DNA of 10,637 bases from Acetobacteraceae bacterium (GTDB taxonomy: Bacteria > Pseudomonadota > Alphaproteobacteria > Acetobacterales > Acetobacteraceae): assembly GCA_947478535.1 (NCBI GenBank), contig CANJXD010000163.1, positions 1 to 10,637 of the forward strand, written 5' to 3'. The notes under the pieces are model-generated. The model had not been told where the DNA came from. It worked only from the letters and a program-made list of their open reading frames with translations, and searched no databases. Below, one piece after another: positions 886-10,637 of the stretch (positions are counted from its first letter, which is position 1; each line of letters begins with the position of its first letter). Made by a program: the position numbers and the translations under genes.

Positions 886-897
886 TTGTCCGGACAC
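886..897. promoter_or_regulatory. Operator site 1: TTGTCCGGACA palindrome upstream of the TRAP operon
   Basis: The sequence carries the perfect 10-bp palindrome TGTCCGGACA at 887-896, preceded by T. The same 11-mer recurs in the three other multi-gene gaps of the window. Its form (GT and AC separated by 4 bases, dyad symmetric) fits operators of GntR-family HutC-type repressors, and such a regulator is encoded at 4898-5665. This copy sits 84 bp after the LysR stop and 141 bp before the dctP ATG, farther from its gene than the other three. Binding by the local GntR protein is inference. Confidence 0.72.
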
Positions 898-899
898 CT

Positions 900-960
900 T
901 TCGCCGGGAGGCGAATTGCCCGAAGCTGCCCCACCCACGACCCGGCCGTGCAGCGGGTGG
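900..960 (+). other. Possible structured 5' leader of the TRAP operon
   Basis: Directly after operator 1 lies a 6-bp inverted repeat, TTCGCC (900-905) and GGCGAA (910-915), with a GGGA loop that fits the GNRA tetraloop pattern. Further on, CCACC (931-935) pairs with GGTGG (956-960) around an inner CACG (936-939)/CGTG (947-950) stem. If transcription starts near operator 1, the dctP mRNA would have a leader of roughly 100-140 nt containing these hairpins. No known riboswitch is recognised, and the remainder up to 1037 shows only a ribosome binding site. Confidence 0.25.
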
Positions 961-1037
961 AGGGCTTCCGCGACAGGCGCCCCTGGCGTCCTGCCGTGCA
1001 CTACCATCCGCCAAGGACAGGGAGAGACAGGAGAACC

Positions 1038-2126
1038 ATGATGAAATTCACGACATTCGGGCGCGCCGCCATGGGCGCGTTCCTTGCCACGGGTCTTGCC
1101 TCCGGGCTGATGGCGGGCACGGCCAGCGCCCAGGGGCCGCAGGTCAACATCCAGGCGGTGACGCAGCCGACACCGGCCATCCCGCAATATACCCGCGTCG
1201 ACATCCCCCTGCTGCGCGATGGCCTCGCGGCGCAGAGCAATGGCCGCATCCGCGTCAACCTCTCCGCCTGGCCGGAGCGGAACCTGAATGGGCCGGAGAT
1301 CATCCGCCTCGTCCGTTCGGGCCAGGTGGAAATCGGCGGCGTGCCGCTGAATACTGTCGCCGGCGACGTGCCGCTGCTGGACATGGTGGACCTCGCCGGC
1401 CTGAACCCGACCATCGGCCAGGCCCGCCAGGTCGCCGATGCGCTGCTGCCGGAAGTGAACCGGGGGCTGGAGCGTTTCGGCGTCCGGATCATCGCCATGG
1501 CGCCCTATCCCGCGCAGGTGCTGTTCTGCCGCGAACGCGCGAATTCGCTGGCCGATCTGCGTGGCCGCCGGATCCGCACGGGTGGCGGCAGCATCAATGA
1601 TTTCGTCGCCGCCGTCGGCGGGCAGGCCGTCGGCATCGGCTTCCCCGAGGTCTATGCGGCGCTGGAACGCGGCGTGGCCGATTGCGCCATCACCGGCACC
1701 GGTTCGGGCAACGGCGCCCGCTGGTACGAAGTCACGACGCACATGTATGCGCTGCCCGTGGCGTGGTCGACCTATGGCTACTTCATCAACCTCGCCTGGT
1801 GGAACCGCCTCGACGCCCAGGCGAAGGAGATGATCACCGCAACCTTCGCCCAGGTGCAGGACGAACAGTGGAAGCTGGGTGACGCAGCCTCCGAGGACGG
1901 CATCGCCTGCAACATCGGCGACCGCGCGAATTGCTCCATCGGCCGTGTGGTGGAAACTCGCCCGATGACCGTCACCCGCCCGACCCCGGCGGATCTGGAC
2001 ACGCTGCGCGGCATTCTCACGAACAGCGTGCTGCCTGCCTTCGTCCGCCGATGCGGCGCCGCCTGTGGGGAGACCTACAACCGCGTCGTCGCCCCGATCT
2101 CCGGCGTTCGCTACGAGGCACGCTGA
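1038..2126 (+). CDS. TRAP transporter substrate-binding protein (DctP family)
   Basis: This 362-residue periplasmic solute receptor captures an organic acid and delivers it to the DctQ-DctM membrane pair. Residues 1-31 are a signal peptide: a basic start (MMKFTTFGRA), a hydrophobic core, and an Ala-Ser-Ala cleavage site before Q32. The DctP fold follows. Its key motif is 'LADLRGRRIRT' (171-181), in which R180 aligns with the family's conserved carboxylate-binding arginine; 'PEVYAALERGVADCAIT' (203-219) is the usual hinge/helix signature. I chose ATG 1038 because GGAG lies just upstream (around 1029-1034) and it begins the signal peptide; an ATG at 948 would add a non-signal extension. The mature protein has six cysteines (164, 216, 291, 299, 339, 343), four in a C-terminal region. 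The substrate is probably a carboxylate but is unknown. The dctQ start follows 2 nt after the stop. Confidence 0.93.
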   Translation: MMKFTTFGRAAMGAFLATGLASGLMAGTASAQGPQVNIQAVTQPTPAIPQYTRVDIPLLRDGLAAQSNGRIRVNLSAWPERNLNGPEIIRLVRSGQVEIGGVPLNTVAGDVPLLDMVDLAGLNPTIGQARQVADALLPEVNRGLERFGVRIIAMAPYPAQVLFCRERANSLADLRGRRIRTGGGSINDFVAAVGGQAVGIGFPEVYAALERGVADCAITGTGSGNGARWYEVTTHMYALPVAWSTYGYFINLAWWNRLDAQAKEMITATFAQVQDEQWKLGDAASEDGIACNIGDRANCSIGRVVETRPMTVTRPTPADLDTLRGILTNSVLPAFVRRCGAACGETYNRVVAPISGVRYEAR

Positions 2127-2128
2127 GC

Positions 2129-2767
2129 GTGCAACGGCCCGCAAACCTCGCATTGCGGGCCGCCACCGGCCTGCGGCGCGCCATCGGCCTGCTCGCCACC
2201 GTCATGGGATACGTGGCGGGCTGGGGCTTCGTGCTCTGCGCCTTTTTCATCACCTTCGATGTGCTGGCGCGCGCCATCCTGCGCGTCAGCACGCAATCCA
2301 CCACCGAGATCACAGGCTACATGCTGGCCTTCGGGCTTTCCTGGGGGCTCGCCCATGCCTTGGCCACGCGGTCCCATGTGCGGATCGACATGCTGGTGAA
2401 CCGGCTGCCGCAACCGCTGCGCATCCCGCTGCATCTGGCCTCGCTCACGCTGCTTGGCGTCTTCGTGGGCTTTGTGGCCAATGGGGCGTGGGACCTGGTG
2501 GATGAATCGCTGCTGTTCAACGCCACCGACATCAGCCTGCTGCGCACACCGCTCGCCATCCCGCAGGGGCTCTGGGCAGCGGGGCTCATCGTGTTTCTTC
2601 TGCTGATCGTGCTGATGCTGGTGGAGAACGTATTGCTGGCACTCACCGGGGATGCGCGGGAGGTGGAGCGCAACCTGTCGTCCCGCGGCTATGACGAGGA
2701 AGCGCGGGAGGCTCTGGAAGCCCTCGGCGCCCTGCCACCTGCCACGGGCGGGGAGGCCGGCCGATGA
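2129..2767 (+). CDS. TRAP transporter small permease (DctQ family)
   Basis: This 212-residue inner-membrane protein is the small subunit of the TRAP permease; it pairs with DctM for Na+-driven uptake of the ligand bound by DctP. Four hydrophobic segments lie near residues 28-47, 62-80, 100-122 and 147-171. Family signatures are 'FDVLARAI' (43-50), the Glu-containing start of the second segment (E60 onward) and 'RSHVRIDMLVNRLP' (81-94). No good ATG exists at the right place. The GTG at 2129 starts 2 nt after the dctP stop and has GAGG at 2115-2118 about 10 nt upstream; a later ATG at 2204 would remove residues preceding the first membrane segment. After the last segment there is a roughly 38-residue charged, Glu/Arg/Ala-rich cytoplasmic tail, longer than in many DctQ proteins. 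The stop codon overlaps the dctM start (ATGA). Confidence 0.9.
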   Translation: MQRPANLALRAATGLRRAIGLLATVMGYVAGWGFVLCAFFITFDVLARAILRVSTQSTTEITGYMLAFGLSWGLAHALATRSHVRIDMLVNRLPQPLRIPLHLASLTLLGVFVGFVANGAWDLVDESLLFNATDISLLRTPLAIPQGLWAAGLIVFLLLIVLMLVENVLLALTGDAREVERNLSSRGYDEEAREALEALGALPPATGGEAGR

Positions 2768-4137
2768 TCGCCGTCGTCTTCATTCTCGTCATGCTGATCG
2801 TGCTGCTGGGCCTGTCGCTGACCGGCGCGGGGGGCGGCGTGGATGTGCCGATCGCCGGCGTGCTGCTGATGCTGGGCATCTTCGGCAGCTTCTTCGCGGC
2901 CGGCATCTATGTCGGCGCGGCGCTCGGCGTGCTCGGCCTCATCGCCGGGTTCATGTATTCGGACCGGCCGTTCTGGCTGTTCCTCGGACAGACCGCCTGG
3001 GGGCCATCATCGTCCTTCGTGCTCGTCGCCGTGCCGCTGTTCCTGCTGATGGGGGAAATCCTGCTGCGGGCCGGCTTGTCGGAACGGCTGTATCGCGCGC
3101 TGAACCTGTGGCTGAACCGCATGCCGGGCGGGCTGCTGCACACGAATATCGTCGCCTCCGGCGTCTTTTCCGCCATCTCCGGCTCCTCCGTCGCCACCGC
3201 GGCGACGATGGGCTCCGTCGCCATGCCTTTCTTCCAGGGGCGCGGCTATGACCCGAAGATGGTGATGGGCAGCCTTGCCGCCGGTGGCGCGCTCGGCAAC
3301 CTGATCCCGCCGGGCATCACCTTCATCATCTACGCGCTGATCACCGAGACCTCCGTCGGCGCGCTGTATCTGGCGGCGGTGGGGCCTTCGCTGCTGGTCA
3401 TGGCCTTCTTCATCCTGGTGATCCTGATGAAGAAGGGCGCGGCGCCGCCGCCCGGCCCGGTGATTCCGCTGGGGGAGAAAATCCGCGGCCTGGTCGGACT
3501 GATCCCGACGCTGCTGCTCATCTTCATCGTGCTCGGCACCATCTATGCAGGGCTGGCGACACCCACGGAATCGGCGGCCCTTGGCGTGGTGGCGGCACTG
3601 GGTATCGCGGTGGTGGAACGGCGCTTTTCCTTCCGCATGCTGCATGCCTGCGCCGAGGCGACGGCGCGCAACACGGCGATGATCGGGCTGATCCTGCTCG
3701 GCGCCTATGTGCTGAACTACGTCATCACGATGCTCGGCATTCCGCAGGTGATGGCGGGCTTCGTCGCCGGCCTGCCGCTGCCGCCCTGGGTCATCATGGC
3801 GCTGATCATCGGCTTCTACCTCGCACTCGGTACCTTCATGGAAGGTTTTTCCATGATCATCACCACCATCCCCGTGATCTTCCCGGTGGTGACGGCGCTG
3901 GGGTATGATCCGATCTGGTTCGGCGTCATCGTCACCATGCTGGTGGAAATCGCGTTGATCAGCCCGCCGGACGGCACGGTGCTGTATGTGCTGCAGGGGT
4001 TGCGGAAGGATGGCGGGGCCATCGGCGATGTCTTCGCCGGCGTGCTGCCCTTCTGCGCCGTCTACATCCTGGCCATCGCGCTGATGATGGTCTTCCCCGA
4101 CATCGCGCTGTGGCTGCCGCGCGTCTCCGGCCCCTGA
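2764..4137 (+). CDS. TRAP transporter large permease (DctM family)
   Basis: This 457-residue polytopic inner-membrane protein is the transport subunit of the TRAP system. Characteristic stretches are 'VPLFLLMGEIL' (90-100), 'GVFSAISGSSVATAATMGSV' (133-152), 'GGALGNLIPPGITFIIYAL' (174-192), 'GLATPTESAALGVVAA' (263-278) and 'GTFMEGFSMIITTIPVIFP' (356-374). The last conserved block, 'LISPPDGTVLYVLQG' (398-412), replaces the commoner 'PPVG' form. The protein is somewhat longer than the usual DctM of about 425-430 residues; much of the extra length lies at the N-terminus, where a hydrophobic segment (1-20) precedes a GAGGG linker. ATG 2764 overlaps the dctQ stop by 4 nt, has GGGAGG 7 nt upstream, and implies translational coupling. 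The following DUF2848 gene starts 11 nt after the stop. Confidence 0.96.
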   Translation: MIAVVFILVMLIVLLGLSLTGAGGGVDVPIAGVLLMLGIFGSFFAAGIYVGAALGVLGLIAGFMYSDRPFWLFLGQTAWGPSSSFVLVAVPLFLLMGEILLRAGLSERLYRALNLWLNRMPGGLLHTNIVASGVFSAISGSSVATAATMGSVAMPFFQGRGYDPKMVMGSLAAGGALGNLIPPGITFIIYALITETSVGALYLAAVGPSLLVMAFFILVILMKKGAAPPPGPVIPLGEKIRGLVGLIPTLLLIFIVLGTIYAGLATPTESAALGVVAALGIAVVERRFSFRMLHACAEATARNTAMIGLILLGAYVLNYVITMLGIPQVMAGFVAGLPLPPWVIMALIIGFYLALGTFMEGFSMIITTIPVIFPVVTALGYDPIWFGVIVTMLVEIALISPPDGTVLYVLQGLRKDGGAIGDVFAGVLPFCAVYILAIALMMVFPDIALWLPRVSGP

Positions 4138-4148
4138 GGACCGTGGGG

Positions 4149-4829
4149 ATGCTGCATTTCGACCGGATCACCACCGCCGGCGCGGACCGCATCGGCATCA
4201 CGCCGACCGCGCTGGTCATCGCCGGCTGGACCGGGCGGGATGAGGCGGCGCTGCGCCACCATATCGAGGAGCTCGCCGCCATCGGCGTCGCACCGCCTTC
4301 CGCCGTGCCGCTGTACTACCGTGCGGCGGCGGCGAATGTGACGCAGGCGGCGGTGCTGGAAGTGCTCGGCCCCGACAGTTCGGGGGAGGTGGAGCCGGTG
4401 ATCGTCTCGCTGGCCGATGGGCTCTGGGTTGGCGTGGGGTCAGACCATACGGACCGCAAGGCGGAAGCGGCAGGGATCGCGCTGTCAAAGCAGCTATGCG
4501 GCAAGCCGATCGGCACGGCGCTGTGGCCGCTGGCGGAGGTGGAGGGGCATTGGGACAGCCTGGTGCTGCGCGCCCGCGCGACGATCGGGACGAAGGAAAT
4601 GCTGTATCAGGACGGCGGCATCGCCACGCTGCGCCACCCGCGGGACCTGCTGGCGCGCCGTCCCGGCGGGCCGGGACTGCCACCGGGGACGGTGATGTTC
4701 TGCGGCACGATCGGCGCCATAGGCGGCATCCGCCCGGCGACGCGCTTTGCCGTGGAACTGCACGACCCCGTGCTCGGGCGAACGCTGCGCCACGCCTATG
4801 ATGTGCGGGAACTGCCCGTGGTGAGTTGA
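4149..4829 (+). CDS. DUF2848 family protein, FAH-like C-terminal half
   Basis: This 226-residue soluble protein, with no signal peptide, matches my memory of the DUF2848 family, for which I know no proven function. Visible conserved blocks are 'SDHTDR' (98-103), 'SKQLCGKP' (113-120), 'GHWDSLVLRA' (133-142), 'PPGTVMFCGTIGAIGG' (178-193) and 'FAVELHDPVLGRTLRHAYDV' (200-219). The last two resemble the C-terminal core of fumarylacetoacetate hydrolase/hydratase proteins, where 'GD-I-TGTP-GVG' is followed by a beta strand carrying 'V-I-G-L-N-V'-type residues. That suggests, but does not prove, a metal-dependent hydrolase or lyase acting on the imported acid. The ATG at 4149 has TGAGGA (4135-4140) 8 nt upstream, overlapping the dctM stop; an ATG at 4110 would overlap dctM deeply. 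It is the last gene of the TRAP operon. Confidence 0.82.
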   Translation: MLHFDRITTAGADRIGITPTALVIAGWTGRDEAALRHHIEELAAIGVAPPSAVPLYYRAAAANVTQAAVLEVLGPDSSGEVEPVIVSLADGLWVGVGSDHTDRKAEAAGIALSKQLCGKPIGTALWPLAEVEGHWDSLVLRARATIGTKEMLYQDGGIATLRHPRDLLARRPGGPGLPPGTVMFCGTIGAIGGIRPATRFAVELHDPVLGRTLRHAYDVRELPVVS

Positions 4830-4868
4830 GGCCGCCCCCCACCGGCGCAGTTGTCCGGACAGGCGGCC
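4830..4868. repeat. Inverted repeat GGCCGCC/GGCGGCC flanking operator 2
   Basis: GGCCGCC at 4830-4836, starting one base after the DUF2848 stop, is exactly complementary to GGCGGCC at 4862-4868. The 25 nt between them hold almost all of operator 2. The two dyads are not concentric, so this is not simply a longer operator. As RNA it would give a 7-bp GC stem with a large loop and no T tract after it, so a terminator is possible but weak. Confidence 0.3.
4851..4862. promoter_or_regulatory. Operator site 2: TTGTCCGGACA palindrome upstream of the GntR gene
   Basis: The perfect palindrome TGTCCGGACA at 4852-4861, preceded by T, ends 36 bp before the GntR gene ATG at 4898. The position fits negative autoregulation, common for HutC-type repressors. 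TTGTCC (4851-4856) matches four of six bases of a -35 box, and TAGCCT at 4874-4879, 17 bp further, is a poor -10. If these are used, the repressor would cover the -35 element; this promoter reading is speculative. Confidence 0.74.
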
Positions 4869-4897
4869 GCGAGTAGCCTCAAGGACAAGATACGGGG

Positions 4898-5665
4898 ATG
4901 GGGGCGATGAAGGCGGGCCAGGGTCGGCAATTGGCGATGAATGTGCCGCGGCCACCGCTTTATGCCCGGATCGAAACGCTGCTGCGCGATGCCATCGCGG
5001 ATGGTCGCTACGGCATCGGCACGCTGCTGCCGACGGAAGCTGAATTGTGCGAGACGCTGCGCGTGTCCCGCCACACGATCCGGGAGGCGCTGCGTCGCCT
5101 CGTCGAATCCGGGCTGGTGGAACGCCGCCAAGGCGCGGGCACGATGGTGGTGGCCCGCGAATCGCCGCGCGGCACGGTGCAATCGCTCCGCAGTATCGAA
5201 TCGCTGTTCCAGTACGCCGCCGATACGCGCCTTGATATCCACACCCGCCGCATGGTGCCGCTGAGTGTCGAGGATGCGGCAGAAATCCCCGCCACGGCCG
5301 GGGAACGCTGGCTGTGGCTGGACGGCATGCGGATCGGCCAGGATGGCGTGCCGATCGCGACGGCGGAGGTGCTGATCGACCCGCGCTTCGCCGCCATCGG
5401 CAATGCGCTGCCCGAACGCGGCGCCATCTACGCCATGATCGAAAGCCGCTTCGGGGTGGAGGTGTCGGAAGTGGTGCAGGAAATCACCGCGGCACCGATG
5501 CCCGCGCCGGTCGCCCACGCACTCGGCCGAAAGCCGCGCACGGTGGGGATGCGCTTCCTGCGCCGCTACCTCGGCACGGATGGCGCGACGGTGCTGCTGT
5601 CCCGGTCCTGGCACCCGGCGGAACGCTTCACCTATGCGATGCGGTTGCGGCGTGGTGAAGGCTGA
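4898..5665 (+). CDS. GntR-family transcriptional regulator, HutC subfamily (UTRA domain)
   Basis: This is a 255-residue ligand-responsive repressor. Residues about 19-85 form a GntR winged helix-turn-helix, with 'PLYARIETLLRDAI' (20-33), 'LLPTEAELCETLRVSRHTI' (43-61), 'REALRRLVESGLV' (62-74) and the wing 'RRQGAGTMVV' (76-85). Residues about 95-250 form a UTRA effector domain: the paired strands near 137-160 ('RWLWLDGMRIGQDG', 'VPIATAEVLID') and the closing 'LLSRSWHPAERFTYAMRLRR' are typical. In this family the effector is usually the substrate or an early intermediate of the controlled pathway. The start is ambiguous: ATG 4898 (AAGGA at 4881-4885), ATG 4907 or ATG 4937; all precede the HTH. 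It lies centrally between transporter and enzyme genes, and its predicted operator occurs in front of itself and the three other units. Family firm; operator assignment inferred. Confidence 0.94.
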   Translation: MGAMKAGQGRQLAMNVPRPPLYARIETLLRDAIADGRYGIGTLLPTEAELCETLRVSRHTIREALRRLVESGLVERRQGAGTMVVARESPRGTVQSLRSIESLFQYAADTRLDIHTRRMVPLSVEDAAEIPATAGERWLWLDGMRIGQDGVPIATAEVLIDPRFAAIGNALPERGAIYAMIESRFGVEVSEVVQEITAAPMPAPVAHALGRKPRTVGMRFLRRYLGTDGATVLLSRSWHPAERFTYAMRLRRGEG

Positions 5666-5672
5666 GGGGCAC

Positions 5673-5701
5673 TTTCCGAAGCCAACGCAGGGCGCTAGCA
5701 T
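5673..5701 (+). promoter_or_regulatory. Candidate promoter for the deacetylase-prpD unit
   Basis: TTTCCG (5673-5678) and TAGCAT (5696-5701, four of six matches to TATAAT) are separated by 17 bp. The expected transcription start, near 5708, would fall at the centre of operator 3, a position that would allow direct repression. The -35 match is poor (three of six), so this remains a weak prediction. Confidence 0.25.
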
Positions 5702-5713
5702 TTGTCCGGACAA
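5702..5713. promoter_or_regulatory. Operator site 3: TTGTCCGGACAA palindrome upstream of the deacetylase gene
   Basis: This is one of the two copies symmetric over 12 bp (TTGTCCGGACAA). Partial symmetry extends outward: GCA on the left and TAGC on the right give 8 of 10 matching half-site bases. It ends 15 bp before the ATG at 5729, so a bound repressor would sit over or just downstream of the transcription start. It is the same 11-mer as the three other sites. Confidence 0.74.
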
Positions 5714-5728
5714 TAGCAGGTGACCCGG

Positions 5729-6613
5729 ATGCCCACCCCTCCCTGGCCGCGGGATGCCCGCCTCGCCCTTTCCGTCGTCGTCAATGTCGAGGAAGGCGCC
5801 GAAATGTCGGTCGCCGATGGCGACAAGGGGCCGGAACCGGTCGATGAGCTGGGCGTGCATCTGAAGGCGCCGATTCGCAATTTCGCCAATGAATCCAACT
5901 ACCTCTACGGCATCCGCGCGGGCTGGCCACGGGTGGCGGCGCTGCTGTCGAAGCACGAGATCAAGGCCACCTTCACCGCCGCCGCCGTGGCGCTGGAACG
6001 CGCGCCGGAGATTGGCGCCGCCATCGCGGCAGGGGGCCATGAGGCGTGCAGCCATGGCTGGCGCTGGGTCCACCAATTCTCCTACGACGAGACGCGGGAG
6101 CGGGACTTCGTGAAGAAGGCGGTGGACAGCATCGCGCGGACGGCGGGCCACCGCCCAGTCGGCTGGCTGTCCCGCTACCTGCATTCGCCACGGCTGCGGA
6201 CCACGTTGGCGGAGGAAGGCTTCCTCTACCACATGGACGACTTTTCCGACGATGAGCCGCGTTGGGATGTGGTGGAGACGAAGGACGGGCCGCGCGCCAT
6301 CGTCATCATGCCCTATGCCCTCGACAGCAACGACATGAAGTTCTGGCTCGCCCCGGGCTACACGCCGCAGCAATGGCTGGACTACGCCATCGAGACCTTC
6401 GAGGTGCTGCATGAGGAAGGCGGCAGCGCCACGCGCATGATGTCGCTGGGCGTGCATCTGCGGATCATCGGCCGGCCCGGGCGCATCGGCGCCTTCGGGA
6501 AATTCCTGCAGCACGCGCGCAGCAGGCCCGGCGTCTGGATCACGACGCGGGCCGAGATCGCCCGCGCCTTCGCCGCCAACACCCCTGCCCCCGCGGAGCA
6601 AGCCGGCCGATGA
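5729..6613 (+). CDS. Polysaccharide deacetylase family protein, PuuE allantoinase-like amidohydrolase
   Basis: This 294-residue cytoplasmic protein (no signal peptide) has a NodB/CE4 fold. It resembles the PuuE branch (allantoinase, cyclic-imide-type hydrolases) more than sugar deacetylases. The first CE4 motif, usually TFDDG, is 'VNVEEG' (18-23). The second, usually H-T-x-x-H, is 'SHGWRW' (108-113), so H109 is kept but the second metal-binding His is replaced by W113. Further landmarks are 'GHEACSHGW' (103-111), 'GWLSRYLHSP' (145-154), 'HMDDFSDDEP' (168-177) and 'LDSNDMKFW' (198-206), the last two PuuE-like. The likely role is hydrolytic ring opening or cleavage of a C-N amide bond in a small molecule; substrate unknown. 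ATG 5729 has AGCAGG about 8 nt upstream and is preferred over the in-frame GTG at 5720. Its stop overlaps the prpD-like start (ATGA). Confidence 0.87.
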   Translation: MPTPPWPRDARLALSVVVNVEEGAEMSVADGDKGPEPVDELGVHLKAPIRNFANESNYLYGIRAGWPRVAALLSKHEIKATFTAAAVALERAPEIGAAIAAGGHEACSHGWRWVHQFSYDETRERDFVKKAVDSIARTAGHRPVGWLSRYLHSPRLRTTLAEEGFLYHMDDFSDDEPRWDVVETKDGPRAIVIMPYALDSNDMKFWLAPGYTPQQWLDYAIETFEVLHEEGGSATRMMSLGVHLRIIGRPGRIGAFGKFLQHARSRPGVWITTRAEIARAFAANTPAPAEQAGR

Positions 6614-7995
6614 GCACGCCATACGACATCGCCGCCGCCTTCGCGGACCATGCGGTGAGGACGCGCTACGAGCATCTCTCGCCCGGCGCCGTTGCCGCGG
6701 CGAAGACCTTTCTGCTCGACACGCTCGGCGTCGGCATCGCCGGCAGCAGTGGCGCGAATGTGGAGACGGTGCGCGAACTCGCGCGGCAATGGGGCACGGG
6801 GGACGAGGCGACGTCCTGGCTCGGCGGCACGCGGATGAGCGCGGGCTCCGCCGCGATCGTCAACGCCTACCTCATCCATTGCCTCGAATTCGACTGCGTG
6901 CATGAAGGCGCCGTCGTGCATCCCATGGCGACGCTGCTCTCCGCCCTGCTCGCCTGGTGCGAGCGGGAGGCGGCGCAGGGCAGGCCGGTCGAGGGCAAGC
7001 GCTTCATCGCGGCGATGGCCGTGGGCGTGGATATCGCGGGGCTGCTCGGTGTCGCGACAGACAGCCCGCTGCGCTTCTTCCGGCCCGCCACGGCCGGTGG
7101 CTTTGGTGCCACCGCCGCCATCGCCAACCTCGCGGGTTTCGATGCCGCGACAACGCGCAGCGCCTTCGGGCACATGTATGGCCAGACCTGCGGCACCTTG
7201 CAGCCGCATCTGGAAGGCTCGCCGCTGCTCGGGCTGCAGATCGGCTTCAACGCGCGCGGCGCCATCGCGGCGTGTGACCTGGCGACGGCGGGGATGCAGG
7301 GGCCGCTCGACATCTTCACCGGGCGCTACGGCTACTTCACGCTGATCGAGGAGAATGTGCACCCCGATCGCATCGAGGCCGCCCTGGGCCGCGAATGGCA
7401 GATTGAGAAACTGTCCCACAAGCCGTTCCCGTCCGGCCGGCTGACGCATGGCGTGGTGCATGCGCTGCGGGATCTGATGGCGCGGGAAGGCTTCGCGGCG
7501 AGCGATGTCGCCAGCATCACCTGCCGCGTGCCGCCGCTGGTGCGGCGCCTGGTAGGGCGGCCAGATATCCCGGACCCGCAATCCAACTACGCGAAGCTGT
7601 GCCTCGCCTTCGTCGCGGGCGTCTATCTCGCCAAGGGGCGCTGCGACGTGCCGGATTTCCGCGGCGAGGCGCTGCGCGATCCGCGGGTGCACGAATTCGC
7701 GGCAATGGTCCAGATCGAGCCCGATGACAACACGGACGAGAACGCGCTCGACCCGCAATTCCACAGCGTGACGCTCACCTCCGGCGTGACGCATGAGATC
7801 CACCTGAAGCACACCTACGGCCACCCCGCCGTGCCGCTGACCGCGGCGGAGAACGAGGAAAAATTCTTCCGCTGCTGCAGCCATGCCGTGCCGCCCGTGC
7901 CGCCCAGCCGCGCCACCCGCATCCGTGATCTCGTCGCGGGGGTGGAGGGGCTGGCGGATATCGCGGTGCTCTCAGCCTTGACCGGCGCGGATTGA
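6610..7995 (+). CDS. MmgE/PrpD family protein
   Basis: This 461-residue cytoplasmic enzyme belongs to the family that includes 2-methylcitrate dehydratase, cis-aconitate decarboxylase and iminodisuccinate epimerase, so chemistry on a di- or tricarboxylate-like molecule is likely. The N-terminal helical domain carries the conserved 'NAYLIHCLEFDCVHEGAVVHP' region (85-105), with H90, D95, H98 and H104 as likely active-site or structural residues. 'KPFPSGRLTHGVVHAL' (271-286) is the counterpart of the family 'K-YP-C-R-TH' block, with Gly (276) where many members have Cys. 'FHSVTLTSG' (384-392) begins the C-terminal beta region. Length is normal for the family. ATG 6610 shares four bases with the deacetylase stop and has GGAG 11 nt upstream, so the two are probably translationally coupled and act in the same step series. 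The exact reaction cannot be deduced. Confidence 0.93.
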   Translation: MSTPYDIAAAFADHAVRTRYEHLSPGAVAAAKTFLLDTLGVGIAGSSGANVETVRELARQWGTGDEATSWLGGTRMSAGSAAIVNAYLIHCLEFDCVHEGAVVHPMATLLSALLAWCEREAAQGRPVEGKRFIAAMAVGVDIAGLLGVATDSPLRFFRPATAGGFGATAAIANLAGFDAATTRSAFGHMYGQTCGTLQPHLEGSPLLGLQIGFNARGAIAACDLATAGMQGPLDIFTGRYGYFTLIEENVHPDRIEAALGREWQIEKLSHKPFPSGRLTHGVVHALRDLMAREGFAASDVASITCRVPPLVRRLVGRPDIPDPQSNYAKLCLAFVAGVYLAKGRCDVPDFRGEALRDPRVHEFAAMVQIEPDDNTDENALDPQFHSVTLTSGVTHEIHLKHTYGHPAVPLTAAENEEKFFRCCSHAVPPVPPSRATRIRDLVAGVEGLADIAVLSALTGAD

Positions 7996-7998
7996 CGC

Positions 7999-8014
7999 GG
8001 GGGGCCTTGCCCCC
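7999..8014 (+). terminator. GC hairpin after the prpD-like gene
   Basis: Four bases after the stop codon, GGGGGC (8000-8005) can pair with GCCCCC (8009-8014) around a CTT loop, a strong 6-bp stem. Only ACATT follows, not a T tract, so efficient intrinsic termination is uncertain. Its place, between one unit's stop and the operator of the next, supports a transcription boundary. Confidence 0.4.
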
Positions 8015-8017
8015 ACA

Positions 8018-8029
8018 TTGTCCGGACAA
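8018..8029. promoter_or_regulatory. Operator site 4: TTGTCCGGACAA palindrome upstream of the acyl-CoA dehydrogenase gene
   Basis: The palindrome is symmetric over 12 bp, with core TGTCCGGACA at 8019-8028, and ends 21 bp before the ATG at 8051. It follows directly on the GC hairpin. No convincing -35/-10 pair fits in the 55-bp gap, so the promoter may lie within the end of the upstream gene or overlap the operator. Confidence 0.74.
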
Positions 8030-8050
8030 ATTCCCACGGGAGATCCCGCC

Positions 8051-9217
8051 ATGTCCAGCAACGCACGCAACGAAGCCGCGGAGGAGGAAGCCCAGCTCCT
8101 CGACGCCATCGACAAATGGCTGACGCGCGATGTCCGCCCGCATGTCCTGCGGCTGGAACATGCGGATGAGTACCCGATCGAGATGGTCGAGCAGATGAAG
8201 GCGCTCGGCCTGTTCGGCGCCACCATCGCGCCGGAATATGGCGGGCTCGGCCTGTCCGCAACGACCTATGCGAAGATCGTGGAGCGTATCGCTGAAGTGT
8301 GGATGTCGCTGTCCGGCATCTTCAACAGCCACCTCATCATGGCCGCCTGCGTCAGCCGCATGGGGACGGAGGCGCAGAAGGCGGAATGGCTGCCGAAATT
8401 CGCCAGCGGCGAAATCCGCGGCGGCCTCGCGCTGACGGAGCCGGATTGCGGCACCGACCTGCAGGCCATCCGCACGCGGGCGCGGCGGGATGGCGACAGC
8501 TACGTCATCAACGGCACCAAGACCTGGATCAGCAACGGCATCTTCGGCACCTGCTTCGCCTTGCTGGTGAAGACGGACAGCGAGATCACGCCCCGCCACA
8601 AGGGCATGTCGATGGTGCTGGCCTCGAAGGGGCCGGGCTTCACCGTCTCGAAGAAGCTGGAGAAGCTGGGCTACAAGGGCATCGATAGCGCCGAGCTCGT
8701 CTTCGATGACTATCGCATCCCCGCGGACCAGCTGATCGGCGGCGTCGAGGGCAAGGGCTTGCAGACAGCCCTTGGCGGGCTGGAACTGGGCCGCATCAAC
8801 GTCGCGGCGCGGGGCGTGGGGCTTGCCTCCGCCGCGCTGAAGGACAGCGTGAAATACAGCCAGATCCGCAAGACCATGGGCAAGCCGATCTGCGAGCACC
8901 AGGCCATCCAGCTCAAGCTCGGCGAGATGGCGACGCGCACCCAGGCGGCGCGGCTGCTGACCTATGACGCCGCCCGCGCCTATGACGCCGGGGAGCGCTG
9001 CGACATGGAAGCCGGCATGGCGAAATACTTCGCCAGCGAGGCCGCCGTGGCGAACAGCCTGGAGGCGCTGCGCATCCATGGCGGCTATGGGTATTCGAAG
9101 GAATACCACGTGGAACGCTACTACCGCGACGCGCCCCTGATGTGCATCGGCGAAGGCACGAACGAGATCCAGCGTATCATCATCGCCAAGCAGATGGTGG
9201 AACGGAACCCGGCGTGA
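8051..9217 (+). CDS. Acyl-CoA dehydrogenase family protein
   Basis: This 388-residue FAD enzyme should introduce a double bond into an acyl-CoA thioester, passing electrons to ETF. The three-part fold is visible: a helical N-terminus, the FAD/substrate signature 'LALTEPDCGTD' (126-136) with 'NGTKTWISNG' (154-163), and the C-terminal bundle with 'RIHGGYGYSKEYHVERYYRD' (341-360). The catalytic base is kept: E368 in 'IGEGTNEIQR' corresponds to the Glu of short/medium-chain enzymes. Length is normal. ATG 8051 has GGAG at 8039-8042, 8 nt upstream; an upstream TTG frame would translate the operator and is rejected. It is followed with a one-base stop/start overlap by a CaiB transferase, an arrangement like the succinyl-CoA transferase plus dehydrogenase pairs for aryl- or alkylsuccinates, so a dicarboxyl-CoA substrate is plausible. 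Specificity is not readable. Confidence 0.95.
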   Translation: MSSNARNEAAEEEAQLLDAIDKWLTRDVRPHVLRLEHADEYPIEMVEQMKALGLFGATIAPEYGGLGLSATTYAKIVERIAEVWMSLSGIFNSHLIMAACVSRMGTEAQKAEWLPKFASGEIRGGLALTEPDCGTDLQAIRTRARRDGDSYVINGTKTWISNGIFGTCFALLVKTDSEITPRHKGMSMVLASKGPGFTVSKKLEKLGYKGIDSAELVFDDYRIPADQLIGGVEGKGLQTALGGLELGRINVAARGVGLASAALKDSVKYSQIRKTMGKPICEHQAIQLKLGEMATRTQAARLLTYDAARAYDAGERCDMEAGMAKYFASEAAVANSLEALRIHGGYGYSKEYHVERYYRDAPLMCIGEGTNEIQRIIIAKQMVERNPA

Positions 9218-10416
9218 TGCTGCCCCTCGCCGGCCTGCGGATCCTGTCCTTCGAGCAGTTCGGCGCGGGGCCCTTCGCGACGATGAACCTCGCCGATCTC
9301 GGCGCCTCCGTCATCAAGGTGGAGCCACCGCCGGCGGGGGATGATCCGCCGGGCGACATCGCGCGCCATACCGGCGGCTTCGCGCTCGGCGAGAATGACA
9401 GCCAGTACTTTCAATCGTTCAACCGCAACAAGCGCAGCATCACGCTCGATCTGCGCAAGCCCGGCGCGAAGGAGGCGCTGCACCGGCTGGTGCGGGATGC
9501 CGATGCGGTGCTGAACAATCTGCGCGGTGATTTGCCGGCGCGGCTCGGGCTGGACTACGCGGCGCTGTCGGCGGTGAAGCCGGAGATCGTCTGCGTGCAT
9601 CTGTCCGGCTATGGGCGCGATGGCGAACGGGCGACCTGGCCCGCCTATGACTACCTCGCCCAGGCCGAGGCCGGCTTCTGCGCGTTGACCGGGGAGCCGG
9701 GGACGAATCCCGCGCGGGCGGGGCTTTCCCTCGTCGATTTCATGTCGGGGCTGACGGCGGCGATGGCGTTGCTCTCCGGCGTGATGGGCGCGCGGGCCAC
9801 GGGGCGCGGCAGCGACCTCGATGTGTCGCTGTATGACGTGGCGATGCAGACGCTGACCTATGTCGGCACCTGGTACCTGAATGACGACTTCGCGGTGGAT
9901 CGCCGCCCGCGCGGCGGGCATCCCTTCGTCGTACCGTGCGAGATGTTCCCGACATCGGACGGCTACGTCTTTGTCATGTGCATCAAGCCGAATTTCTGGC
10001 GCGCCTTCTGCCGTGCGGCAGGCGTGCCCGAGTTGCTGGATGACCCGCGCTTTTCCGGCTTTGACGAACGCCTCGCCAATCGCGATGCGCTGATGGCGGC
10101 GCTTGATCCGGTGATGCGTGCCAAGCCCTCGGACGAATGGGTCGCGCTGCTCGCGGGCAAGGTGCCGGTGGCGCCGGTGCTGGGTCTTGGCGAGGCGCTG
10201 GACAATCCGTATTTCCGCGATCGTGGTGGTGTGCTGGACCTGCCGCATCCCGCGCGGCCGGATCTCAAGGTGCTGGCCAACGCCATCCGCATCGACGGCC
10301 AGCGCCTGCCGGGGCGCGCCGGGCCTGGCTATGGCGCGGATACGGCCGCTGTGCTGGGCGCTGCCGGCTATACGGCGGATGAAATCGCGCAATTGCGTGC
10401 GCTGGGGGCGGTGTGA
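9217..10416 (+). CDS. CaiB/BaiF family CoA-transferase (class III), first of a tandem pair
   Basis: This 399-residue enzyme moves CoA between carboxylic acids through a covalent aspartyl-CoA anhydride/thioester route. Family marks are the N-terminal 'LAGLRILSFEQFGAGPFATM' (4-23), 'ADLGASVIKVEPP' (26-38), 'FNRNKRSITLDLRKP' (68-82), the catalytic Asp D174 in 'SLVDFMSGLTAAMALL' (171-186), and 'GRGSDLDVSLYDVAM', the usual segment after it. The C-terminal part continues through 'NPYFRDRGGVLDLPHP', also typical. Full length is normal for the family. The ATG at 9217 overlaps the dehydrogenase stop (TGATG); a GTG one codon earlier is also possible. A divergent homologue follows with the same overlap, so the two may form a heteromer. 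The acceptor acid is unknown; the N-terminal catalytic machinery appears intact. Confidence 0.95.
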   Translation: MLPLAGLRILSFEQFGAGPFATMNLADLGASVIKVEPPPAGDDPPGDIARHTGGFALGENDSQYFQSFNRNKRSITLDLRKPGAKEALHRLVRDADAVLNNLRGDLPARLGLDYAALSAVKPEIVCVHLSGYGRDGERATWPAYDYLAQAEAGFCALTGEPGTNPARAGLSLVDFMSGLTAAMALLSGVMGARATGRGSDLDVSLYDVAMQTLTYVGTWYLNDDFAVDRRPRGGHPFVVPCEMFPTSDGYVFVMCIKPNFWRAFCRAAGVPELLDDPRFSGFDERLANRDALMAALDPVMRAKPSDEWVALLAGKVPVAPVLGLGEALDNPYFRDRGGVLDLPHPARPDLKVLANAIRIDGQRLPGRAGPGYGADTAAVLGAAGYTADEIAQLRALGAV

Positions 10417-10637
10417 TGAAGCTCGATGGGATTCGCGTTCTCGATCTCTCGCTGTTCCTGCCCGGTCCCTACATGACGACGGTGATGGCCGATCACGGCG
10501 CCGAGGTCATCAAGCTCGAACCTCCCTCCGGCGAGCCCGTGCGGAACATCGGCGAACGCGCGGGCGGGGAGAGCGTGTGGTTCCGCAACACGCATCGCGG
10601 CAAGAAATCCATCGTGCTGGACCTCAAGAAGCCGGAG
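10416..10637 (+). CDS. CaiB/BaiF family CoA-transferase, second of the pair, 3' end missing
   Basis: Seventy-four codons are visible before the right edge. 'MKLDGIRVLDLSLFLPGPYM' opens the protein, 'ADHGAEVIKLEPP' matches the Rossmann-like 'ADLGA-VIK-E-P' block, and 'THRGKKSIVLDLKKPE' matches the 'RGK-S--LDLK' block of class III CoA-transferases. The catalytic Asp lies beyond the window. It is clearly related to, but divergent from, the preceding gene, with a different N-terminal loop (LSLFLPGPYM against FEQFGAGPFATM). The start overlaps the preceding stop by one base (TGATG), with GGGGG about 7 nt upstream; a GTG directly before the ATG is an alternative. Homodimer or heteromer with its neighbour cannot be decided. 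Confidence 0.9.
   Translation, partial: MKLDGIRVLDLSLFLPGPYMTTVMADHGAEVIKLEPPSGEPVRNIGERAGGESVWFRNTHRGKKSIVLDLKKPE

Follow-up and report, generated by a model that had tools for sequence, protein, structure and literature searches.

The DNA analysed here (the window: all 10,637 nucleotides of contig CANJXD010000163.1, assigned to an Acetobacteraceae bacterium) carries a gene cluster with a GntR-type regulator at its centre and four copies of a short palindrome. The relationship between this palindrome and the regulator is the subject of this report. An exact search of the whole window places the 11-base sequence TTGTCCGGACA on the plus strand at 886-896, 4851-4861, 5702-5712 and 8018-8028, the positions at which an initial annotation had already reported four identical palindromes. 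Minus-strand matches at 5703 and 8019 bring the total over both strands to 6. This number was reached by none of 200 dinucleotide shuffles (shuffle mean 0.00), in agreement with the earlier judgement that a chance origin is improbable. When two mismatches are allowed there are 8 matches, all within the same four places (shuffle mean 1.92). The copies at 5702 and 8018 are the full 12-base palindrome TTGTCCGGACAA, those at 886 and 4851 have one outer base changed and end in C and G respectively, and the perfect core TGTCCGGACA is common to all four.

Gene families were assigned by Pfam and NCBIfam searches, and with homologues for the regulator. The end of a LysR gene lies at the window start and adjoins the first palindrome. 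Candidate operator copy 1 (TTGTCCGGACAC, 886-897; no strand is assigned to any copy) stands ahead of TRAP transporter genes, which like all the following genes are on the plus strand: the solute-binding protein DctP (1038-2126), the small permease DctQ (2129-2767) and the large permease DctM (2764-4137). A gene for a DUF2848 protein (4149-4829) comes next. Copy 2 (TTGTCCGGACAG, 4851-4862) is ahead of gntR (4898-5665), which encodes the GntR/UTRA (HutC-type) regulator proposed to bind the four sites. Copy 3 (5702-5713) is 15 bp before the ATG of a gene for a PuuE-like hydrolase of the polysaccharide-deacetylase fold (5729-6613), followed by a gene for an MmgE/PrpD protein (6610-7995) whose closest solved relatives are cis-aconitate decarboxylases. 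Copy 4 (8018-8029) is ahead of an acyl-CoA dehydrogenase gene (8051-9217) and a family III CoA-transferase gene (9214-10416). The window end cuts a further gene, of which the start (10416-10637) is present; its homologue in relatives is the second CoA-transferase-like gene, there at full length.

Gaps of more than 50 bp occur at 803-1037, 4830-4897, 5666-5728 and 7996-8050, and each holds one palindrome copy. This one-per-gap arrangement was part of the initial annotation and holds with the gene starts chosen here (ATG 1038, GntR 4898, ATG 5729 and ATG 8051), on which the gap borders depend. The mechanical list of open reading frames has earlier starts for three genes (948, 5720 and 8018), and the start at 8018 sits on the palindrome.

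The regulator had been recognised before as HutC-type, and its domains agree with this. The N-terminus is a winged helix-turn-helix of the GntR family (PF00392, E 7e-22, above cut-off) and the C-terminus is a UTRA domain (PF07702, 48.7 bits against a cut-off of 23.8). Its identity is 82-86% with the nearest named homologues from Falsiroseomonas and 62-67% with others of the genus, so that the window probably derives from this genus or from close to it. Its scores fall below the equivalog cut-offs of both the HutC histidine-utilisation repressor (TIGR02018, 83.4 bits against 220) and the phosphonate regulator PhnF (TIGR02325, 79.3 bits against 156.8). According to the available part of PMC4494728, most HutC-type sites have the form GT-N4-AC, as the initial annotation had stated for GntR/HutC dyads.

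Conservation and placement of the palindrome

To collect relatives, 38 GntR proteins were selected among the 120 matches listed and aligned, and a scan with this alignment gave at least 80 loci; L001-L007 are treated as close relatives and 73 as distant loci. The close relatives, titled Falsiroseomonas or Roseomonas, contain the same cluster as the window. These orthologous clusters have the core palindrome at three matching places: before the gntR unit (7/7), before the acyl-CoA dehydrogenase gene (7/7) and before the PuuE-like gene (6/7, L004 being the one without). L001-L003 have an extra copy at a second PrpD gene.

An unbiased scan, in which every 10- and 12-base palindrome was ranked against a first-order model, placed TGTCCGGACA and TTGTCCGGACAA first in both of the locus sets used. 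For the window together with L001-L007, the core was observed 27 times against 0.10 expected and the 12-mer 20 times against 0.00. In the 73 distant loci the core was observed 50 times against 1.15 expected, spread over 31 loci, and the 12-mer 31 times against 0.04, spread over 23 loci. A relaxed form, TTGTnCGnACAA, is present in 39 of the 73 distant loci, and 26 have neither this form nor the core. The palindrome TTGTACGTACAA ranks second among the 12-base palindromes of the distant loci.

The palindromes avoid genes. The gene caller missed some genes and over-extended others, and the coding test therefore used genes trimmed by 200 bp. Within these trimmed genes lie 1 of 21 sites of the close set (66% coding) and 1 of 50 of the distant set (51% coding). 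The figure for core palindromes of the close set is 3/27, and around the scattered sites described below it is 4/17 against 68% coding.

The placement of the sites can also be related to promoters, whose boxes and start points are predictions. All 8 clusters have TTGTCC-N17-TA(G/C)C(C/T)T at the site ahead of the gntR unit, which makes the TTGTCC of copy 2 the likely -35 box of gntR; the likely -10 box (TAGCCT, 4874-4879, plus strand) is 17 bp behind it. A possible -10 box (TAGCAT, 5696-5701, plus strand) abuts copy 3, and a TAG box is found 7 bases upstream of the core at the PuuE-like gene in 5/7 clusters. The acyl-CoA dehydrogenase operon has a possible -35 box (TTGACG, 7992-7997, plus strand), the TTGAC of which is conserved 27-29 bases upstream of the core in 8/8 clusters. 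This layout suggests a repressor that covers core promoters, shutting out polymerase and restraining its own expression. We infer that a GntR dimer would bind each palindrome, with one winged helix-turn-helix per TTGTCC half, and that in the structural operons the operator would lie at or just behind the likely -10 box. Bound GntR would deny RNA polymerase access to the catabolic operons and to gntR itself, until binding of an inducer to the UTRA domain caused GntR to leave the operator. Such a regulon would support uptake of an organic acid and its CoA-dependent breakdown, with operons elsewhere in the genome among its members.

Co-occurrence with the regulator and scattered sites

The 11-mer is present in 23 of 25 genomes. 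The seven close genomes have 7-21 strand matches against 0-2 for a reversed control, and distant genomes often show little or no excess (G011 7 against 4, G021 0 against 3, G025 1 against 1). The full 12-mer was counted in 163 genomes, of which 150 came from the family and 15 from the genus, with two in both sets. Twelve genomes have a GntR that is at least 62% identical (eleven genus members, all at 64% or above, and G112 at 62%), and every one of them carries between 3 and 9 copies (8, 9, 4, 3, 6, 3, 7, 5, 8, 7, 8 and 5). Among the other 151 genomes, 140 have none, ten have one and G031 has four. More than one site is thus found in 12/12 genomes with the regulator and 1/151 without it; the associated p value of 3e-17 is far too strong given the relatedness of the genomes. 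Within the genus the comparison is 11/11 against 0/4 (p 7e-4). The copies of the palindrome in genomes are few and track the regulator. Many unrelated genomic copies or absence from orthologous clusters, either of which would have spoken against the initial annotation, were not observed.

The initial annotation had described a regulon of the cluster. Its pairing of GntR and palindrome is supported; the confinement to the cluster is not, since sites also occur before MaoC and other operons. An exact site precedes a MaoC hydratase gene in 11/11 genomes having the regulator, at 12-17 kb from gntR where one contig carries both. Other sites are found before a second TRAP pair (DctP and a fused DctQM) in 5 genomes, before an amidohydrolase gene in 4, and before a flavin monooxygenase gene in 3; four further genomes have a site with one mismatch at the corresponding place of the monooxygenase gene. 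A GAF-domain gene (L115:3506-4129) is present in all 11 regulator genomes of the genus and was not found in the other 4. Its stretch has an exact site in 7/11 genomes, in five of which this is the nearby TRAP site, and the GAF-domain protein is a possible functional partner.

The comparison of the monooxygenase site covers 14 of the 15 genus genomes; G178, with a best match of only 47%, is excluded. G001, G002 and G003 read CATTGTCCGGACAACA ahead of the gene. G179 has no GntR match; its monooxygenase shares 90% identity with the G003 enzyme, and at the position that matches G002 in distance from the start it reads CATTGTCCCGCCGACA. It has TTGTCCCGCCGA where G001-G003 have TTGTCCGGACAA, so that one half-site is kept and the other is gone. 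This half-broken site, a single case, points at the regulator rather than the cluster. There is no site ahead of the monooxygenase in G004-G007, G175 and G180, and this target is therefore restricted to a subclade. Among further candidates for site decay, the amidohydrolase is uninformative, having no site in G001-G003 either, the fused TRAP gene has no match in the seven genomes queried, the GAF gene has none in G175 and G178-G180, and the MaoC gene has none in G178-G180 and a 54% match in G175.

Probable assignment of the palindrome to the GntR protein

On this evidence we put at roughly 0.85 the probability that the HutC-type GntR encoded at 4898-5665 has the palindrome (core TGTCCGGACA, full TTGTCCGGACAA) as its operator. 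Several observations weigh against this assignment. In none of the seven close relatives do the 900 bp ahead of DctP hold an exact counterpart of the transporter site (886); the best match differs at one position in L003, where it lies 334 bp upstream, and at 3-4 positions in the other six. The transporter unit is therefore a variable member, and of the four units originally placed under one repressor, the sites of gntR, hydrolase/PrpD and the CoA genes proved to be conserved and that of the transporter did not. The motif does not track every homologue, since 22 of 24 family genomes with only remote GntR homologues (34-43%) are without the 12-mer. G031 has four sites, yet only 37% GntR homologues. 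Of the four genus members without the regulator, three have no acyl-CoA dehydrogenase either, so that the co-occurrence partly mirrors the cluster itself, and the decay in G179 could be a site that was never completed. Finally, G174, G176, G177 and G181 have a 40-41% GntR paralogue about 0.8 kb from one site.

These paralogues are the starting point of an alternative in which this GntR shares the sites with at least one HutC paralogue whose specificity overlaps its own, so that the scattered copies form several overlapping regulons. The remote loci (GntR 34-52%), 39 of 73 of which carry the motif or close variants, fit such sharing. So does G175, which has only a 40% homologue and carries ATGTCCGGACAT, with the same core and altered flanks, on a diverged MaoC locus (L254:2027-2038). 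Against it, 32 regions were scanned for a GntR winged helix-turn-helix and the only match was the cluster itself, leaving no other such domain in the 31 regions (7 kb) around non-cluster sites of G001, G002, G003, G005 and G006. Nor is there a site near 20 other UTRA regulators (395,702 bp in four of the same genomes; 20 of the 27 others found in five genomes), and the paralogue has SRAT, not SRHT, in its helix-turn-helix. Shared ownership appears unlikely, if by no means negligible.

Alternatively, GntR could be a bystander and the palindrome the site of a different regulator, for instance the LysR protein, whose gene at the window start adjoins the first site. LysR sites are longer, of the T-N11-A type, and differ in this from the 12-base dyad. 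A search of the 80 related loci at E 1e-20 returned no LysR relative, the sites persist in these loci, and they track GntR across genomes. The GT-N4-AC dyad is moreover of the HutC form (available part of PMC4494728). On the evidence of these loci LysR ownership was dropped as highly improbable. Origin as an RNA hairpin, by chance or as a mobile repeat without a protein partner was also dropped and is practically negligible: the palindrome is a perfect inverted repeat and single 12-mers do occur in 10/151 genomes without a close GntR (about 0.07 per genome), but it self-pairs in the RNA fold at only 1/4 sites, its flanks differ among copies, and its shuffle result (0/200) and first rank in the palindrome scan oppose chance.

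Known systems and the proposed pathway

The window protein shares its architecture, a GntR winged helix-turn-helix with a UTRA sensor, with the HutC subfamily (HutC, PhnF, NagR/YvoA, DasR), and DasR and YvoA are among its closest solved relatives. A palindrome of GT-N4-AC form beside the regulator's own gene is a further likeness, of sequence only (PMC4494728, in part). The differences are the CCGG centre of the window palindrome, the scores below the curated HutC and PhnF cut-offs, and the conserved company of acyl-CoA dehydrogenase, CoA-transferase, PrpD and TRAP genes. The HutC regulons catalogued by comparative genomics in PMC4494728 and RegPrecise (16 groups), as far as the available part of that source describes them, rest on the same kind of inference, from an autoregulated HutC-type factor and palindromes before clustered operons. 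The window regulon may match one of these 16 groups. Literature searches returned no printed bacterial operator of this sequence, RegPrecise entries being outside their coverage. Exact-sequence searches gave only Drosophila work for TTGTCCGGACAA and nothing bacterial on an operator; those for TGTCCGGACA gave p53 and other eukaryotic work, by title, and nothing bacterial. A search with four variants, judged from its listing, gave only a Geobacillus expression toolbox, with TTGTACGTACAA once.

The available part of PMC4494728 reports that His at helix-turn-helix position 39 contacts G in the AraR-DNA complex and is associated with G/C in the YtrA set. AraR of Bacillus subtilis resembles the window GntR in the DNA-binding domain only, through His-39; its sensor is LacI/GalR-type (same source), for another ligand class, whereas the window GntR has UTRA. 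In our own alignment the window GntR has this His (SRHT), and its proposed operator has a CCGG centre. Among 37 His-39 loci with a relaxed-form 12-mer, 26 have CCGG (the window and its close relatives account for 8 of these), and all 4 loci with Ser or Ala at position 39 lack it, with centres ACGA, TCGT or ACGT. The link between His-39 and CCGG is only suggestive because five Azospirillum loci combine His-39 with an ACGT centre, and it is confounded by ancestry.

The substrate is perhaps a substituted dicarboxylate degraded by a CoA-dependent route. PrpD is nearest to cis-aconitate decarboxylase, a MaoC gene matches mesaconyl-CoA hydratase, and in G112 an HpcH/HpaI lyase gene lies 5 bp behind a site; these findings fit the route and do not prove it. 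A close relative of the acyl-CoA dehydrogenase (61-83%) is present in 42/73 distant loci, 41 of which also have a CoA-transferase relative of at least 45%, and this pairing suggests a widespread pathway.

Chances are about even for a broader proposal, in which TTGTnCGnACAA (mostly with CCGG) is an undescribed operator class of alpha-, beta- and gammaproteobacteria. Its HutC-type clade would travel with a conserved acyl-CoA dehydrogenase/family III CoA-transferase/PrpD/TRAP catabolon for substituted dicarboxylates. The Falsiroseomonas regulon would reach scattered operons (MaoC, the second TRAP pair, the flavin monooxygenase), and loss of the regulator would be followed by decay of the scattered operators. 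The putative regulon is new, of a well-known kind of bacterial gene switch. A regulator, its proposed operator and a set of enzymes are linked here as a single regulon open to testing, and searches for the operator in other genomes can point to more genes of this pathway.

Some variation in gene content was observed. The DUF2848 gene (4149-4829) has a relative in L001-L004 only; L005-L007 and the distant loci have none. In L004 (7195-7998) and L005 (9228-9977; Pfam) a gene of the arylmalonate-decarboxylase family (Amdase) is situated between operator and gntR, and L007 has an open reading frame of similar size in its place. Azospirillum loci L058, L061, L070, L072 and L080 have two GntR relatives each (34-35% and 37-38%) and the palindrome TTGTACGTACAA near one end. 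A contig titled Phormidium willei, a cyanobacterium, has PrpD, acyl-CoA dehydrogenase (72%), CoA-transferase, DctM and GntR genes in the proteobacterial order (L025:1719-10139) and is possibly a contaminant. In L118 (3511-5372) a flavin monooxygenase gene is followed, behind an operator, by one for an isochorismatase-family hydrolase, a pair that resembles those of nicotinate/picolinate-type ring breakdown.

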